Part shown: positions 3,720 to 10,899 of the stretch, in pieces
How the letters are laid out: the number at the start of each line of letters is the position of its first letter
How positions within the stretch are numbered: the stretch's first letter is position 1
Assembly: GCA_015661395.1 (NCBI GenBank)
Contig: JACWML010000017.1
Span: 1-37,563 of the forward strand
DNA length: 37,563 bases
Direction of reading: 5' to 3'
Origin: Methanomicrobia archaeon
GTDB taxonomy: Archaea; Halobacteriota; Bog-38; Methanoflorentales; Methanoflorentaceae
The notes under the pieces: generated by a model
Database searches by the model: none
Told to the model about the DNA's origin: nothing
What the model saw: the letters and a program-made list of their open reading frames with translations, nothing else
Program-made: the position numbers and the translations under genes

Positions 3720-4077
3720 CGAGTGTGGCTAACCAGTCTGGCCAATAAAGTGAGATTAAACTACTTCAGTTGAGCTAACGTTGAGGCGAGAGAAAGCGAG
3801 CAACAACCAAAGACAGAGTGCCAGCTGTAAGTCAAACATCAAGTGGATGGAAGCCGCTATGCCAGAGATCCCTTGCGTGTGCAGTGCGATTGTTTATGCG
3901 AAGAGCGTCGAGCACGACAAAACAGACTATACCTCGAAATTCCGCCCAATTTGTCAAATATTTAAGCTAGCTTAGAAAATGCCCAAGAGAAACTAAATGT
4001 GCAAAGCGGCCAAGCTAGAAGCCCTAAAAAACTGGACGATAGAGCAATTCCTGCCTCTTTACGAAGATCTATTTGAA

Positions 4078-4773
4078 ATGAACGACAAAAAAGATATTTC
4101 TGTCATTACGGCCATTGCTGGCGGGAAAGACAAGCTGTTGCCTCAACCGGAGTACAAGGGCGTTGAATATATCGCCTTTGTGGACGAGAAAGTTAAGCAC
4201 CCACCCTGGAAAACCCGTGATGTATGCGACAAATTCGCCAAGCCCGTAATGAACGCCAAGATACACAAGGTTTTATCCCACACATACGTCGACACGCCTT
4301 ACATAGTTTGGGTGGACGGTAATATCACCCTCAAGCAAGACCCGCACAAACTGGTCAAGCTGATGGGCGATAAGGATTTTGCTTTCTTTACCCACCCGCG
4401 CAGGGATTGCATTTATGAGGAGGCCGACGCCTGCATTCATTTGCAGAAAGGTGACTCCGGAGAAATCACAGAACAGATAACGGAATACAAAAAAAACACC
4501 CACCCCGAACACGGTGGGCTGTGCGAACTCACGGCCTTTATCAGAAAGAACACCCCCGAAGCCAATGAAGCCTTTGAAAAGTGGTGGATTGAAATCACAC
4601 GGTATTCGGAACGCGACCAGCTAAGTTTTCCCGTCGTTTTTAAAGAAAAGAAATGGGCGACCATTCCGGGCACAGTGGAGGAGATTAAATGCGACCCAAT
4701 ATTTAGAGGCAATGAGTTCTTCAGGCTGATAGCACACAAAAAATTAACTGAACGAGACCACGGACGAATTTAA
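4078..4773 (+). CDS. DUF616/TOD1-MUCI70-like glycosyltransferase-type protein
   Basis: MNDKKDISVITAIAGGKDKLLPQPEYKGVEYIAFVDEK...WKTRDVCDKFAKPVMNAKIHKVLSHTYVDTPYIVWVDGNI...DFAFFTHPRRDCIYEEADACI...ERDQLSFPVVFKEK. ORF opens at 3997; internal ATG at 4078 is a likely start. Confidence 0.7.
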   Translation: MNDKKDISVITAIAGGKDKLLPQPEYKGVEYIAFVDEKVKHPPWKTRDVCDKFAKPVMNAKIHKVLSHTYVDTPYIVWVDGNITLKQDPHKLVKLMGDKDFAFFTHPRRDCIYEEADACIHLQKGDSGEITEQITEYKKNTHPEHGGLCELTAFIRKNTPEANEAFEKWWIEITRYSERDQLSFPVVFKEKKWATIPGTVEEIKCDPIFRGNEFFRLIAHKKLTERDHGRI

Positions 4774-4927: not shown

Positions 4928-5068
4928 AGGTCACACAAAGACCTCCATCGGTTGAAAATCTACGTCGGGCGACCCGCCGTGGTGGATGCTCGACGAGTCT
5001 TCGATCCTCAACAATTCCGCGACCGACTGACGTTTATCGCAGCCGGCCTAGGAGACTTCAGCGGCTAG
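4928..5068 (+). pseudogene. Remnant C-terminal tail of a UDP-sugar 6-dehydrogenase paralogue
   Basis: Translation RSHKDLHRLKIYVGRPAVVDARRVFDPQQFRDRLTFIAAGLGDFSG*, aligned by eye with the C-terminus of the intact dehydrogenase at 15831-17219 (TPAVVDARRIFDPHEFGNRLTFLAVGVGRE). Confidence 0.85.
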
Positions 5069-5136
5069 CGACAGCGGTTTACTAAGCTTCTCTTACATAC
5101 AGGTGGTGACGAGCTCGGGGTTGTGCGGAAATCACG

Positions 5137-6660
5137 ATGGCTGCGACGGACCTCGACTCTAAGCTGCCCGACGTTTCCCGCAGCTGCGCCCGACCAAGGA
5201 GCAAACTTTTTTATACTCGCGCGAGCAGCTCTCAAATAGAATTGTTTTTCTTCTCCGTGGATCAATTGAGCGACCCGTTCGAAGGGCAGGGGCTTTCGAA
5301 CACACGGGACAAACTCGACGAGTTCGCTCGAACGAAGCTGAAGGAGGGCTGGCGCGAGGCGCACCAGGCTCCCTTCTCTCCCTGGACGTTCTACCGCATG
5401 GCCGTCAGCTACCTCTACCTCTCTAAGCCCTATCCCGCGTTGGCGGCGTGCGCGAAAGCGCTCCAGCTGAGCAACTCGGAGTCCGTCATCAACGCCGCGC
5501 ACGACGCGCTCAGCGTCCTCGACGCGTGTGAGGAGGAACTCGTCGGCTATGAGTGGTTGCGCCGGTTGCTCCTGATCGGCGCTGCGGGGAGGTTTCACGC
5601 GTCCCGCGCGCTGTCGGAGCTGCAGCTGCTCGCATTGCCGGAAGCGCCGATCGCCCCCCCGGTCACGATTCTCGCGGGCGGGTGCAGGGCCGACGACGAC
5701 GCGTGCTTCGTCGTTTTTCGCCCGCTCGTGATTGAAGCGTTTCGCACCTACACGGGCACGATCATCTCGGGGGGGACGCCCATCGGGGTCAGCAGTATGG
5801 CTGGGGACGTGCAAGAGGCGTTTCCCGAGTCTATCCACGCGATCGGCTACGTCCCGCGCGGCGTGACCAACACGCCCCTCGATCACCGCTATAACGAGAT
5901 TCGGCTAACGCCCAATTCCGACTTCAGCGCCATGGAAGTGATCCAGTACTGGTGCGACCTCGTCGCCTCCGGCGTTTCGCCCTCGCAGGTGACGGTATTG
6001 GGCATCGACGGCGGCCCAATATCCGCGAGCGAATACAAGGTGGCCTTGGCCCTCGGCGCGTCCGTCGCCTTGCTCGAAGGAAGCGGCCGCGAGGCGAAAA
6101 AGCTTCGGCACAACCGGCGCTGGCGGGCCTCTCGGGGGCTCGTGTGCATTCCCGTTGACAGCTACATCATCGAGGAGTTCGTCAAGCCCCATCCGCAGCA
6201 GCTCGATACGGCCGAGCGGGAGCGTTTGGCGCGGGTCATTCACGACGCGTACAGGGAACGCGAGCGGGGCGTCACGCCCGCGGATGATCCGTCGATGGCG
6301 CCGTGGGACGAGCTACCGAGTTATCTGAAGCACTCGAATCGCGCCCAGGCGGATCGTATCTTTGAGAAGGTGGAGCGCATCGGGTACACCGTCGAGAGGC
6401 GTACCGGCGGCAGCGCGGCGCCGATCACGGATTTCACGCGTGATGAGCTTACCGTGATGGCGCAGATGGAGCACGGTCGCTGGGTGGTCGAGCGCCTCAA
6501 CGGAGGGTGGATGCCTGGATCCGGACGGGACGTCCGGCACAAGATAAGCCCCTATTTTGTCCCGTGGCGCGCCTTGCCTGAGTACGTGAAGAACAAGGAG
6601 CGCAAAATGGTGCGCACCATACCCACGCTCCTCGACGCGATCGGGCTGCAGGTTGGCTAA
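5137..6660 (+). CDS. SLOG/LSDAT-like nucleotide-sensor domain fused to C-terminal RyR domain, helical/TPR-like N-terminus
   Basis: C-term MAQMEHGRWVVERLNGGWMPGSGRDVRHKISPYFVPWRALPEYVKNKERKMVRTIPTLLDAIGL matches the RyR pattern (HxxW...GW..G..rd...hP.lvpw..Lpe..K..d...v..ip.ll...G). Middle TIISGGTPIGVSSMAGDV...VTVLGIDGGPISASEYKVALALGASVALLEGSGREA is Rossmannoid SLOG/LSDAT-like. Confidence 0.82.
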   Translation: MAATDLDSKLPDVSRSCARPRSKLFYTRASSSQIELFFFSVDQLSDPFEGQGLSNTRDKLDEFARTKLKEGWREAHQAPFSPWTFYRMAVSYLYLSKPYPALAACAKALQLSNSESVINAAHDALSVLDACEEELVGYEWLRRLLLIGAAGRFHASRALSELQLLALPEAPIAPPVTILAGGCRADDDACFVVFRPLVIEAFRTYTGTIISGGTPIGVSSMAGDVQEAFPESIHAIGYVPRGVTNTPLDHRYNEIRLTPNSDFSAMEVIQYWCDLVASGVSPSQVTVLGIDGGPISASEYKVALALGASVALLEGSGREAKKLRHNRRWRASRGLVCIPVDSYIIEEFVKPHPQQLDTAERERLARVIHDAYRERERGVTPADDPSMAPWDELPSYLKHSNRAQADRIFEKVERIGYTVERRTGGSAAPITDFTRDELTVMAQMEHGRWVVERLNGGWMPGSGRDVRHKISPYFVPWRALPEYVKNKERKMVRTIPTLLDAIGLQVG

Positions 6661-6867
6661 ACGGGCGACGAGTAGGCGCGAGCGCGTCACGTGCAGATCC
6701 GGCGTAAAGGGATCGTTTTTTGTACTTTGAGCGAGCGTACACACGTCAGTAAGCGATGAAGTGCCGAGCGCTCCGCGCGTGGTGCGGACCCGACGGGAAG
6801 CGAACGCGCACCGCGTCGGTCTTTGGGCACCTCGGTCAGCAGAGGTGCTGCGCGTCACCGCTGGGTT

Positions 6868-8046
6868 ATGATCGTCATGGTGCCGTCATACGCTGAGCAG
6901 AGCGCGCTCGTCAGCGACCGTCGCGAACAGGGCGCCGATCAGACGGACGACATGCACGACACCCCTGAAGAAATGGCGCAGTGGAAGCCGCTTGCGGCTG
7001 CCCTTCAGAGCTGTCAAGAAAAGGTCGAGCCGGCGTATCGGGCCGCGGACCGCACCGCGCTGCGATTTCAGAAGCAGCACCAGGCCATCACGATTGCGGC
7101 TGCCATCGCCGGCACCGTCGCCGTGCTGCTTGCGATCCTCCAGCTGCCCTCGATTATAGGCGGATTTCTCGTGCCGATTCCCTTCGTCGAAGGCATGGCG
7201 GCAGCCATCGCGTTTGTCGCCGTCCTGCTCGGCATCTTCACGCTCCGGCACGTGGGGTGGATGTTCCTGCGCCACAAGGCGGAACGGTTCAAGTTTCTCA
7301 AGTTTCGCTTCCTCATCGACCCGCACCTGTGGAGCGACGACGCCGCTCAGCGGGAACGCACGACGCAATGGCTGACGTATGCGACCAACAAGATCGCGGG
7401 GCTGACGAACGAGGAGTTGGAAACGTGGGCAGAGCACGGCATTCTCCCCGAAGAGCCGCCGAGCTTGGCGGGCAGCCGGGCCGACGCCTACACCCTCTAC
7501 AGCCTCGTCGACTACTACCTCACGAAGCGCTGCAGGAATCAGCTCCACTACTTTGAGCGCAAGGCGCAGCAGTTTTCGAGCACGGATCGCTATATCAAGG
7601 CGCTGCCCCGTCTGCTGTTCTTTGGGAGCGTCCTCGCCGCGCTCGCGCACTTCTCTCTCGACCTCTTCGACACGTACCTTCAGCCGCCCGAGGCTGCGGC
7701 GCAGGCAGCCGAAACAACGGCGCGCGTGCCCACTATTACCCTTGCAATCGCCCTTATCCTCGTCGCCGCGTCGCTCCCGGTCATCGGCGCGGGCGTCCGG
7801 ACGTTCCGCTCGGCCTATCAGCTCGCCCGCAATACGAGCCGCTACAAGGCGGCGTTCGAGGCGATTAAGCTTCCTGCGGAACGGCTGGAACACGATGCCG
7901 AGCGCCTATACGGGCTCTACGCCGAGGGGCGTACCACCATCGACGCCCACGACGTCTTCCGCGACCTGTGGCGCTGCGAGCAAATCCTTGAGGCCGAACA
8001 CCGTGAGTGGCTCCGCCTCATGATGGAGGCAGAGTGGTTCGGCTAG
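6868..8046 (+). CDS. Membrane protein with two TM-hairpin units resembling SLATT/DUF4231 (SMODS/SLOG-associating 2TM effector)
   Basis: Two pairs of hydrophobic helices (AITIAAAIAGTVAVLLAIL / AAAIAFVAVLLGIFTL and LLFFGSVLAALAHF / TLAIALILVAASLPVIGAGV), each followed by a basic/aromatic helix (RHKAERFKFLKFRFL; RTFRSAYQLARNTSRYKAAF). ORF opens at a TTG (6823); ATGs at 6868 and 6952. Domain name is inferred from topology and neighbours. Confidence 0.6.
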   Translation: MIVMVPSYAEQSALVSDRREQGADQTDDMHDTPEEMAQWKPLAAALQSCQEKVEPAYRAADRTALRFQKQHQAITIAAAIAGTVAVLLAILQLPSIIGGFLVPIPFVEGMAAAIAFVAVLLGIFTLRHVGWMFLRHKAERFKFLKFRFLIDPHLWSDDAAQRERTTQWLTYATNKIAGLTNEELETWAEHGILPEEPPSLAGSRADAYTLYSLVDYYLTKRCRNQLHYFERKAQQFSSTDRYIKALPRLLFFGSVLAALAHFSLDLFDTYLQPPEAAAQAAETTARVPTITLAIALILVAASLPVIGAGVRTFRSAYQLARNTSRYKAAFEAIKLPAERLEHDAERLYGLYAEGRTTIDAHDVFRDLWRCEQILEAEHREWLRLMMEAEWFG

Positions 8047-9489: not shown

Positions 9490-10899
9490 ATGGCGGAGTT
9501 GTTTCACAAGGCGATTCAGATGAATAACGACAGCAACGTAGAAAGCCTCATTGCGGACTTAGGAAGTTCGGAATGGAATACGAGGAGCGAGGCCGTACGC
9601 GCGCTCCGCAAGCTCGGCGACAAGCGCGCCGTCGAGCCTGTCATCAGCATGTTGAACGACGAAAATAAGGTGGTGCGCAAATACGCGGCATACACGCTCG
9701 ACAAACTCGGCGACACGCGTGCCGTTGAGCCGCTTATCACCGCGCTGAGCGACGAGAGCACGAGCGTGCGAAGCATGGCCGCCCAGTCGCTCGGCCACCT
9801 GGGCGATACACGCGCCGTGGAGTCGCTTCTCAACGTCTTGCAGCACGACGAGGAATGGCTCGTGCGCGACGCAGCGGCGCACGCGCTCAGCCACCTCGGT
9901 GACAAGCGTGCCGTCGAGCCCCTCATCGCCGCCATCGGCGACGAGCACTGGTTCGTTCGTGAGGCGGCCGTGCGCGCCGTAAGCAAATTGGACGACCAGC
10001 GCGCCCTTGAACCGCTGATTTCCGAAGCCTTTGACGACGAGCACTGGTTCGTTCGTGAGGCGGCAGTGCAATCGCTCGCTTTACTGCACGACCCGCGCGC
10101 GGTTGAAGCGCTCATCACGATCGTTACGAGTCCAAAAAGTGAGGAGGGGCGGGGCAGCCCCGGCGACATATACGTTCGAAAGGCGGCGACGCAGGGCCTG
10201 GGTCAGCTCCATGACAAGCGCGCGATTGAGCCGCTCATCGTCGCGCTCACCGACGAGTACCGCGTGGTTCGCGAGGAGGCGGCCCGTGGCCTCGGTCAGC
10301 TCCGTGATAAGCGCCCCGTTACTCGCCTCACCCGCGCGTTGGATGACGAAGATTGGATCGTGCGCGAGGCTGCCGCCCGCAGTCTCGGCCAAATTGGTGA
10401 CGACCGCGCCGAAGACGCCCTCTATGACACCGTTATGGGTAACCGGCCGTGGATCCGCGACTTAGATGATGAAGACAAGTACGTGCGCAAGGCGGCGACG
10501 CACGCGCTCTGGAAGCTCGGCGACATGCGCGCCCTCGACGGGCTGATCGATAACTTAAAGAACGAGGATCGCTTTGTTCGCAAAGCCGCAGCCGAAACGC
10601 TTGGCCAGCTCGGCGATGAGCGTGCCGTAGATGCACTCATTGATGCTCTCGCCAATTCGGAAAGCGCTGACCGGGCGCACGCCGCAGACGCATTGGGAAA
10701 GATCGGCGATACGCTGGCCGTTGAGTCTCTGATCCGCGCCTTGGGCGACAATAATGCAGTCGTACGCAAGTACGCCGCGTACGCCCTTGGTCAACTCAAC
10801 GATCCGCGGGCGACCCCTCCACTCACCCGGGCTTCAAAGGATGCAGACATGGACGTACGAGATTCCGCTGCTCACGCATTGTGGCGGCTTCAATGTTGA
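9490..10899 (+). CDS. HEAT-repeat protein (PBS-lyase/E-Z type), about 14 repeats
   Basis: Repeating ~31-aa unit such as LGDKRAVEPLIxALxDExxxVRxAAAxALGxL throughout the ORF. Confidence 0.93.
   Translation: MAELFHKAIQMNNDSNVESLIADLGSSEWNTRSEAVRALRKLGDKRAVEPVISMLNDENKVVRKYAAYTLDKLGDTRAVEPLITALSDESTSVRSMAAQSLGHLGDTRAVESLLNVLQHDEEWLVRDAAAHALSHLGDKRAVEPLIAAIGDEHWFVREAAVRAVSKLDDQRALEPLISEAFDDEHWFVREAAVQSLALLHDPRAVEALITIVTSPKSEEGRGSPGDIYVRKAATQGLGQLHDKRAIEPLIVALTDEYRVVREEAARGLGQLRDKRPVTRLTRALDDEDWIVREAAARSLGQIGDDRAEDALYDTVMGNRPWIRDLDDEDKYVRKAATHALWKLGDMRALDGLIDNLKNEDRFVRKAAAETLGQLGDERAVDALIDALANSESADRAHAADALGKIGDTLAVESLIRALGDNNAVVRKYAAYALGQLNDPRATPPLTRASKDADMDVRDSAAHALWRLQC
9940..10065 (+). repeat. 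Identical 29-nt segment in two neighbouring HEAT repeats (gacgagcactggttcgttcgtgaggcggc)
   Basis: The string occurs near 9940 and again near 10037, encoding DEHWFVREAA both times; surrounding bases differ. Confidence 0.85.

Follow-up and report, generated by a model that had tools for sequence, protein, structure and literature searches.

A TPR-SLOG-RyR protein as candidate nucleotide sensor in a TIR-linked gene cluster of a euryarchaeon

We analyzed a stretch of 37,563 nucleotides (hereafter the window) from a Methanomicrobia archaeon (GTDB lineage Archaea; Halobacteriota; Bog-38; Methanoflorentales; Methanoflorentaceae; assembly GCA_015661395.1, contig JACWML010000017.1, positions 1 to 37,563 of the forward strand). 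One gene of the window encodes P0001, a protein joining a TPR region, a SLOG domain of the LSDAT type and a RyR domain. Judging from domains and gene neighborhoods, the chances are about even that P0001 senses the nucleotide signal in a small TIR-based immune module. The logic would resemble Thoeris, with a TIR protein as signal source, the SLOG-RyR protein as reader and a SLATT protein as effector. On the same strand, P0001 is followed by a double-SLATT-like protein with four transmembrane (TM) segments (P0003) and then by a TIR-TM protein (P0004). Following a trigger, the membrane-anchored P0004 would convert nicotinamide adenine dinucleotide (NAD+) to an ADP-ribose-type signal, for which an isomer of cyclic ADP-ribose (cADPR) is the likeliest candidate. 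P0001 would read the TIR-made signal with its RyR domain, its SLOG domain or both, and would then switch the adjacent P0003, which would alter membrane permeability and thereby stop the cell or the virus. The proposed role of P0001 as signal reader draws on its domains, on a recurrent set of RyR, double-SLATT and TIR genes, on the general neighborhood of RyR and TIR genes and on family-wide conservation of the RyR pocket. A preliminary description of the gene had already suggested that this protein may carry the ligand-sensing step of the cluster. This is still the best reading found, and the RyR half as well as the SLOG half now draws support from genome comparison and from the literature.

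The fusion of TPR, LSDAT-type SLOG and RyR domains in P0001 is confirmed. Both the SLOG/LSDAT and the RyR domain of the preliminary description exceed their Pfam cut-offs. Residues 191-327 match PF18171 with 29.2 bits (cut-off 25.4; E 6.8e-7), or with 32.7 bits if the SLOG segment is searched alone, and residues 440-506 match PF02026 with 47.8 bits (cut-off 27.4; E 1.8e-12). The fusion is beyond chance because it is found again in a full-length paralogue on another contig of the same genome (C46; 40% identity over the common part, E 1e-109) and in a relative from another family (G244; E 6e-90). Searches of plasmids and phages returned only RelA-only or RyR-only matches.

The three parts of the fusion are documented in different ways. 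The N-terminus, a helical region of about 170 amino acids in the preliminary description, is the end of a TPR array, which that description missed. Residues 9-41 align to the middle of the C46 array with a score of 45 against 20 +/- 4 for shuffled sequences (0 of 2000 shuffles), and the C46 array itself gives TPR matches. The Rossmannoid segment of the preliminary description holds as an LSDAT_prok SLOG domain by sequence. Its three-dimensional core is not confirmed, with AlphaFold2 models of P0001 and of its SLOG segment (single sequence each) reaching a predicted local distance difference test score of about 35, which is uninformative on the fold. Searched against the PDB, the SLOG profile hit nothing beyond chance matches, and the paralogue C46 reaches only 18 bits against PF18171, under the cut-off. 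Aligned by hhalign, the SLOG alignment gave a weak match to the LSDAT domain on contig C53 of the same genome, hence the SLOG assignment rests on Pfam and on motifs such as the GGTPIG loop. This loop is expected to bind nucleotides by analogy with SLOG proteins in general. Its GGT and the next Gly are retained in C46 (GGTGSG), and the loop is lost in the G244 relative.

The C-terminus was previously described as a clean RyR domain. The domain itself stands, and its best PDB matches are animal RyR repeat structures (E 1.6e-10, or 3.5e-22 using a two-sequence profile), with a bacterial RyR protein structure also among the matches. A second, degenerate repeat had been overlooked. The region around residues 363-421 of P0001 and its counterparts in three relatives match the C-terminal half of PF02026 with 14-23 bits, all under the cut-off. 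With such a repeat preceding the RyR domain, the C-terminus of P0001 may be a tandem of RyR repeats, comparable to Repeat12 in animal channels. Hydropathy revealed no hydrophobic segment in P0001, and hence no channel pore. The features are listed in Table 1.

Table 1. Position of P0001, its parts, its edges and its partner genes in the window.
Feature	Position	Strand	Basis or remark
P0001, TPR-SLOG(LSDAT)-RyR protein, 507 amino acids	5137..6660	+	Open reading frame; start is ATG 5137 or in-frame GTG 5257
End of TPR array, helical N-terminal region, residues 9-160	5161..5616	+	Alignment to C46 TPR array; weak TPR_1 match at 83-111
SLOG / LSDAT_prok domain, residues 191-327	5707..6117	+	PF18171 above Pfam gathering cut-off
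GGTPIG loop, expected SLOG nucleotide-binding loop	5770..5787	+	Binding role inferred from SLOG proteins generally
Degenerate first RyR repeat, residues ~363-421	6223..6399	+	Half-domain PF02026 matches below cut-off in four proteins
RyR domain, residues 440-506	6454..6654	+	PF02026; H446 and W449 kept, S471/E488 at RyDEP H100/D117 positions
Double SLATT-like membrane protein P0003, 407 amino acids, four hydrophobic segments	6823..8046	+	NCBIfam SLATT_1; hydropathy; start uncertain (TTG 6823)
TIR-TM-PsbP-like protein P0004	8149..9210	+	TIR_2 E 4e-21; PsbP E 1e-10
ugd-like gene 3' end and downstream bases	4969..5129	+	80% identity to C7:2049-2207; adjoins truncated 5' end
122 bases identical to contig end C7:1-122	5185..5306	.	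Assembly overlap, second copy or strain variant

The double-SLATT protein recurs together with RyR and TIR genes in other genomes. Among 397 genomes of the phylum, which form the comparison set, the double-SLATT family is present in three, and in all three a RyR gene directly adjoins it and a TIR gene is nearby. In one of these genomes (G254), the double-SLATT gene lies 47 bases behind a RyR gene of 96 amino acids and is followed by a TIR gene, which is the order of the window. In another (G209), the double-SLATT gene and an RCK-channel-like RyR gene are divergently oriented, and a TIR gene lies further on. RyR genes related to that of P0001 are found in 19 of the 397 genomes, so the adjacency of double-SLATT and RyR is not background. 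These 19 genomes contain 35 TIR_2 matches, and 15 of the matches have a RyR gene no more than 5 kb away, compared to 0.18 expected under random placement. The 15 cases cover 10 genomes and 7 genera. Six are immediate same-strand pairs of RyR and TIR genes, with spacings ranging from a 14-base overlap to a 224-base gap. RyR domains are fused to RCK potassium-channel-like proteins, to PAS-HisKA modules, to AAA ATPases (one adjoining DUF4062 proteins), to SLOG or to no partner. The RCK potassium-channel-like fusions adjoin TIR genes in five genomes (G023, G254, G209, G323, G349). Proteins of the PAS(-HisKA)-RyR type stand directly beside TIR-TM proteins in four genomes (L015, L059, L060, L064), as another type of RyR-TIR pair.

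The partner genes have features matching the proposed roles of signal source and effector. The TIR domain of P0004 (8173-8577) contains a conserved Glu, which is invariant in 11 of 11 TIR domains compared. In TIR NADases generally, the conserved Glu is catalytic. SLATT proteins are predicted to be membrane effectors regulated by ADP-ribose derivatives (PMC9503650; PMC7159879). The PsbP-like C-terminal domain of P0004, located after the membrane segment, is an unusual partner for a TIR domain. A HEAT protein further downstream (9490-10899) was considered as an additional member of the module and dropped, as none was seen in the G254 and G209 clusters.

Evidence on the RyR ligand comes from phages. 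According to a May 2026 preprint (PMC13232231), phage RyR-domain proteins bind the TIR products 2'cADPR and 3'cADPR, with nanomolar affinity in two sponge-type proteins. RyDEP hydrolyzes both molecules, and several homologues sequester them without cleavage. The pocket of RyDEP is described there as formed by H75, W78, H100 and D117, and pocket residues are common to phage and animal RyR domains. Neither archaea nor SLATT is named in the preprint text, which as far as read deals with viral proteins; a description of the host-side setting was not found there. We mapped the pocket positions onto 24 archaeal RyR domains. The His and the Trp are present in 24 of 24, and the Asp is present in 23 of 24. 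Most of the domains have His or Ser at the H100 position. The mapped segment was located by the H..W pattern, meaning that His and Trp are partly selected and that the other two positions are not. As far as sequence can tell, the RyR pocket is largely conserved across the archaeal family and less so in P0001. RyR-like sequences were also seen in 216 phage records, which include Salmonella, Pseudomonas, Arthrobacter and Erwinia phages. Most bear a hypothetical annotation, and the sequences are candidates for RyDEP-like anti-TIR proteins.

Several observations weigh against a sensor role for P0001 in a TIR-based module. P0001 has Glu at the D117 position, the single such case among the 24 domains, and Ser at the H100 position. 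P0003 matches NCBIfam SLATT_1 over two stretches with 39.9 bits, just under the curated cut-off of 41, and is below the cut-off in Pfam as well. The closeness of RyR and TIR genes could partly reflect general defense islands, and the expectation of 0.18 assumes random placement. Some of the RyR-TIR loci share a genus with others and are not independent. Finally, the gene has a truncated-looking 5' end, and the choice between ATG 5137 and GTG 5257 as start codon is unsettled. By eye, the interior of the reading frame contains a TATA-like stretch in addition to the in-frame GTG at 5257.

The paralogue and the relative point to the origin of this 5' end. The C46 protein (L010:7812-10397, minus strand) has 861 amino acids and combines a RelA/SpoT domain, the TPR array, SLOG and RyR. 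The RelA/SpoT domain is encoded by a separate open reading frame in G244 and is absent from P0001, and a tblastn search with C46 found no trace of RelA upstream of P0001 in the window. Homology to a ugd-type gene ends around 5129, and homology to C46 starts around 5161, midway through the TPR array. Given the missing RelA and the ugd edge, the P0001 gene looks 5'-truncated, as if a recombination edge had left only the 3' part of a longer architecture. The gene probably arose through loss of the RelA/SpoT half, which C46 still has. The preliminary description had captured neither this origin nor the double-SLATT and TIR partners. Because 5185-5306 is identical to the end of contig C7, there may be another copy or a strain variant, and ugd-like 3' ends are located upstream of the 122 common bases in both the window and C7. 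The RelA/SpoT domains of C46 and G244 belong to the NCBIfam GTP diphosphokinase YjbM family, and the stretches taken as catalytic motifs are conserved between the two. The G244 row of genes (L045:8480-13322) consists of a NUDIX gene, the RelA reading frame, the TPR-SLOG-RyR reading frame and an RCK-channel-like RyR protein. A frameshift close to a T run apparently separates the RelA and TPR-SLOG-RyR frames. A NUDIX gene also precedes the C46 paralogue (L010:7812-11120), and NUDIX hence adjoins the RelA/SpoT-TPR-SLOG-RyR architecture in two distant lineages. A genome of the same genus (G004, L013:4489-4878) has a fragment with RyR alone, which shares 75% identity with the C46 paralogue and lies directly behind an inorganic pyrophosphatase gene. 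The fragment is probably a gene remnant.

This ancestry raises the question whether P0001 senses an entirely different molecule. The RelA/SpoT domain of the ancestral protein might make an alarmone-type nucleotide, which NUDIX would clear and which SLOG and RyR would sense in cis, leaving P0001 as the separated sensor half for an alarmone supplied by C46. The complete architecture of C46, the RelA and NUDIX genes around the TPR-SLOG-RyR frame of G244, the NUDIX gene beside C46 and the conservation of the presumed RelA motifs are all consistent with such a branch. However, the locus in the window is without RelA or NUDIX and has TIR and SLATT instead, most RyR genes have no RelA gene nearby, and the characterized RyR ligands are cADPR isomers (PMC13232231). 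We therefore consider an alarmone sensor unlikely. The same preprint motivates a further alternative in which the RyR domain of P0001 hydrolyzes or sequesters the TIR product, as RyDEP and its merely sequestering homologues do with 2'/3'cADPR, and thus resets or dampens the module rather than activating SLATT. P0001 retains a His and an acidic residue at the dyad positions. Yet the acidic residue is a Glu in place of D117, and the RyR fusions of relatives to RCK channel-like, PAS-HisKA and AAA modules fit sensing better than clearing, making a terminator or sponge quite improbable.

P0001 might alternatively be a non-functional remnant of a RelA/SpoT-TPR-SLOG-RyR gene, truncated at the 5' end and placed beside SLATT and TIR by accident in a variable region. 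The junction between the ugd remnant and the mid-array start of C46 homology would be expected for such a fragment, as would the contig-end repeat overlapping the start of P0001, the two deviating pocket positions and the precedent of G004, which retains a RyR fragment only. Against decay, about 500 codons have stayed open with motifs retained at 40% identity to C46. Moreover, SLATT and TIR lie downstream on the same strand, and the association of RyR, double-SLATT and TIR recurs in two other genomes. A decaying fragment is accordingly quite unlikely.

The proposed TIR-signal module has counterparts among known and predicted systems. Thoeris combines a ThsB TIR protein with an effector reading cADPR, such as the SLOG-bearing ThsA, and the window likewise has a TIR gene near a SLOG gene, with a similar predicted order of signal, reader and effector. 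P0001 differs by its additional RyR domain and by the lack of an effector domain, a role that would fall to the separate 4-TM double-SLATT protein. None of four cluster proteins matches SIR2 or ThsA models. Membership in Thoeris was rejected and the module is not filed as such, since a ThsA-type effector (e.g., SIR2-SLOG) is absent. Predicted SLOG/SLATT conflict systems (PMC9503650, PMC7159879, citing Burroughs et al. 2015) associate SLOG with 2-TM SLATT and TIR, and the window similarly combines SLOG with a SLATT-like protein and TIR. The differences are the RyR and TPR regions of the SLOG protein and two SLATT-like units per polypeptide. Phage RyDEP and RyR sponges have PF02026 in common with P0001, including the His and Trp of the pocket, and are tied to TIR signals (PMC13232231). 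They are anti-defense genes of phages, whereas P0001 belongs to a TIR cluster of the host, carries TPR and SLOG in addition to RyR and has Glu and Ser at the D117 and H100 positions. Animal TRPM channels and ryanodine receptors have LSDAT (TRPM) and tandem RyR repeat (ryanodine receptor) domains in common with P0001, which is without a channel and without homology to calcium channels, the parts being on separate genes. The NUDIX, SLOG and channel-like RyR proteins of G244 resemble the parts list of animal TRPM2. The domain of small RelA/SpoT synthetases is shared by C46 and G244 and not by P0001.

The genome is euryarchaeal. It has a gene for the PolD large subunit (PF03833), and the only control genomes that share this subunit are the three archaea, so the archaeal host named in the preliminary description is upheld. 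No archaeal 16S was found in the assembly. The same genome has a second SLOG system on contig C53 (L012:2928-4726), where a classic LSDAT domain is fused to a SLATT-type 2-TM domain and overlaps a short SLATT_1-like gene. Upstream of P0001, the window contains a TOD1/MUCI70 glycosyltransferase-like domain (3997-4773; E 3.5e-20) in a polysaccharide gene region. In another genome of the same genus (G003, L016:2537-16001), an AAA-RyR protein is flanked by two large DUF4062 proteins, of which one has WD40-looking repeats, and an Arcobacter plasmid (L056) carries a similar set of TrkA-like, RyR and DUF4062 genes.

In the archaeal neighborhoods, RyR domains on the host side adjoin TIR genes, are found on potassium-channel-like proteins and lie beside SLATT, whereas binding of TIR signals has so far been shown in phage proteins. 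We tentatively suggest, as a possibility that falls short of being probable, that archaeal host RyR domains serve as receptors for cADPR isomers made by TIR proteins and gate membrane proteins. Gating might be direct in the RyR-RCK potassium-channel-like proteins, and in the window it might run through a SLOG-RyR adaptor that acts on the 4-TM SLATT protein. In that case, the RyDEP proteins of phages might be host receptors acquired by capture, and nucleotide control of the animal ryanodine receptor and TRPM might echo a prokaryotic immune circuit. If true, these domains would constitute a new receptor class for TIR signals and a possible host source of phage RyR-domain proteins. The long-open relation between cADPR and the ryanodine receptor would become testable in a simple system.
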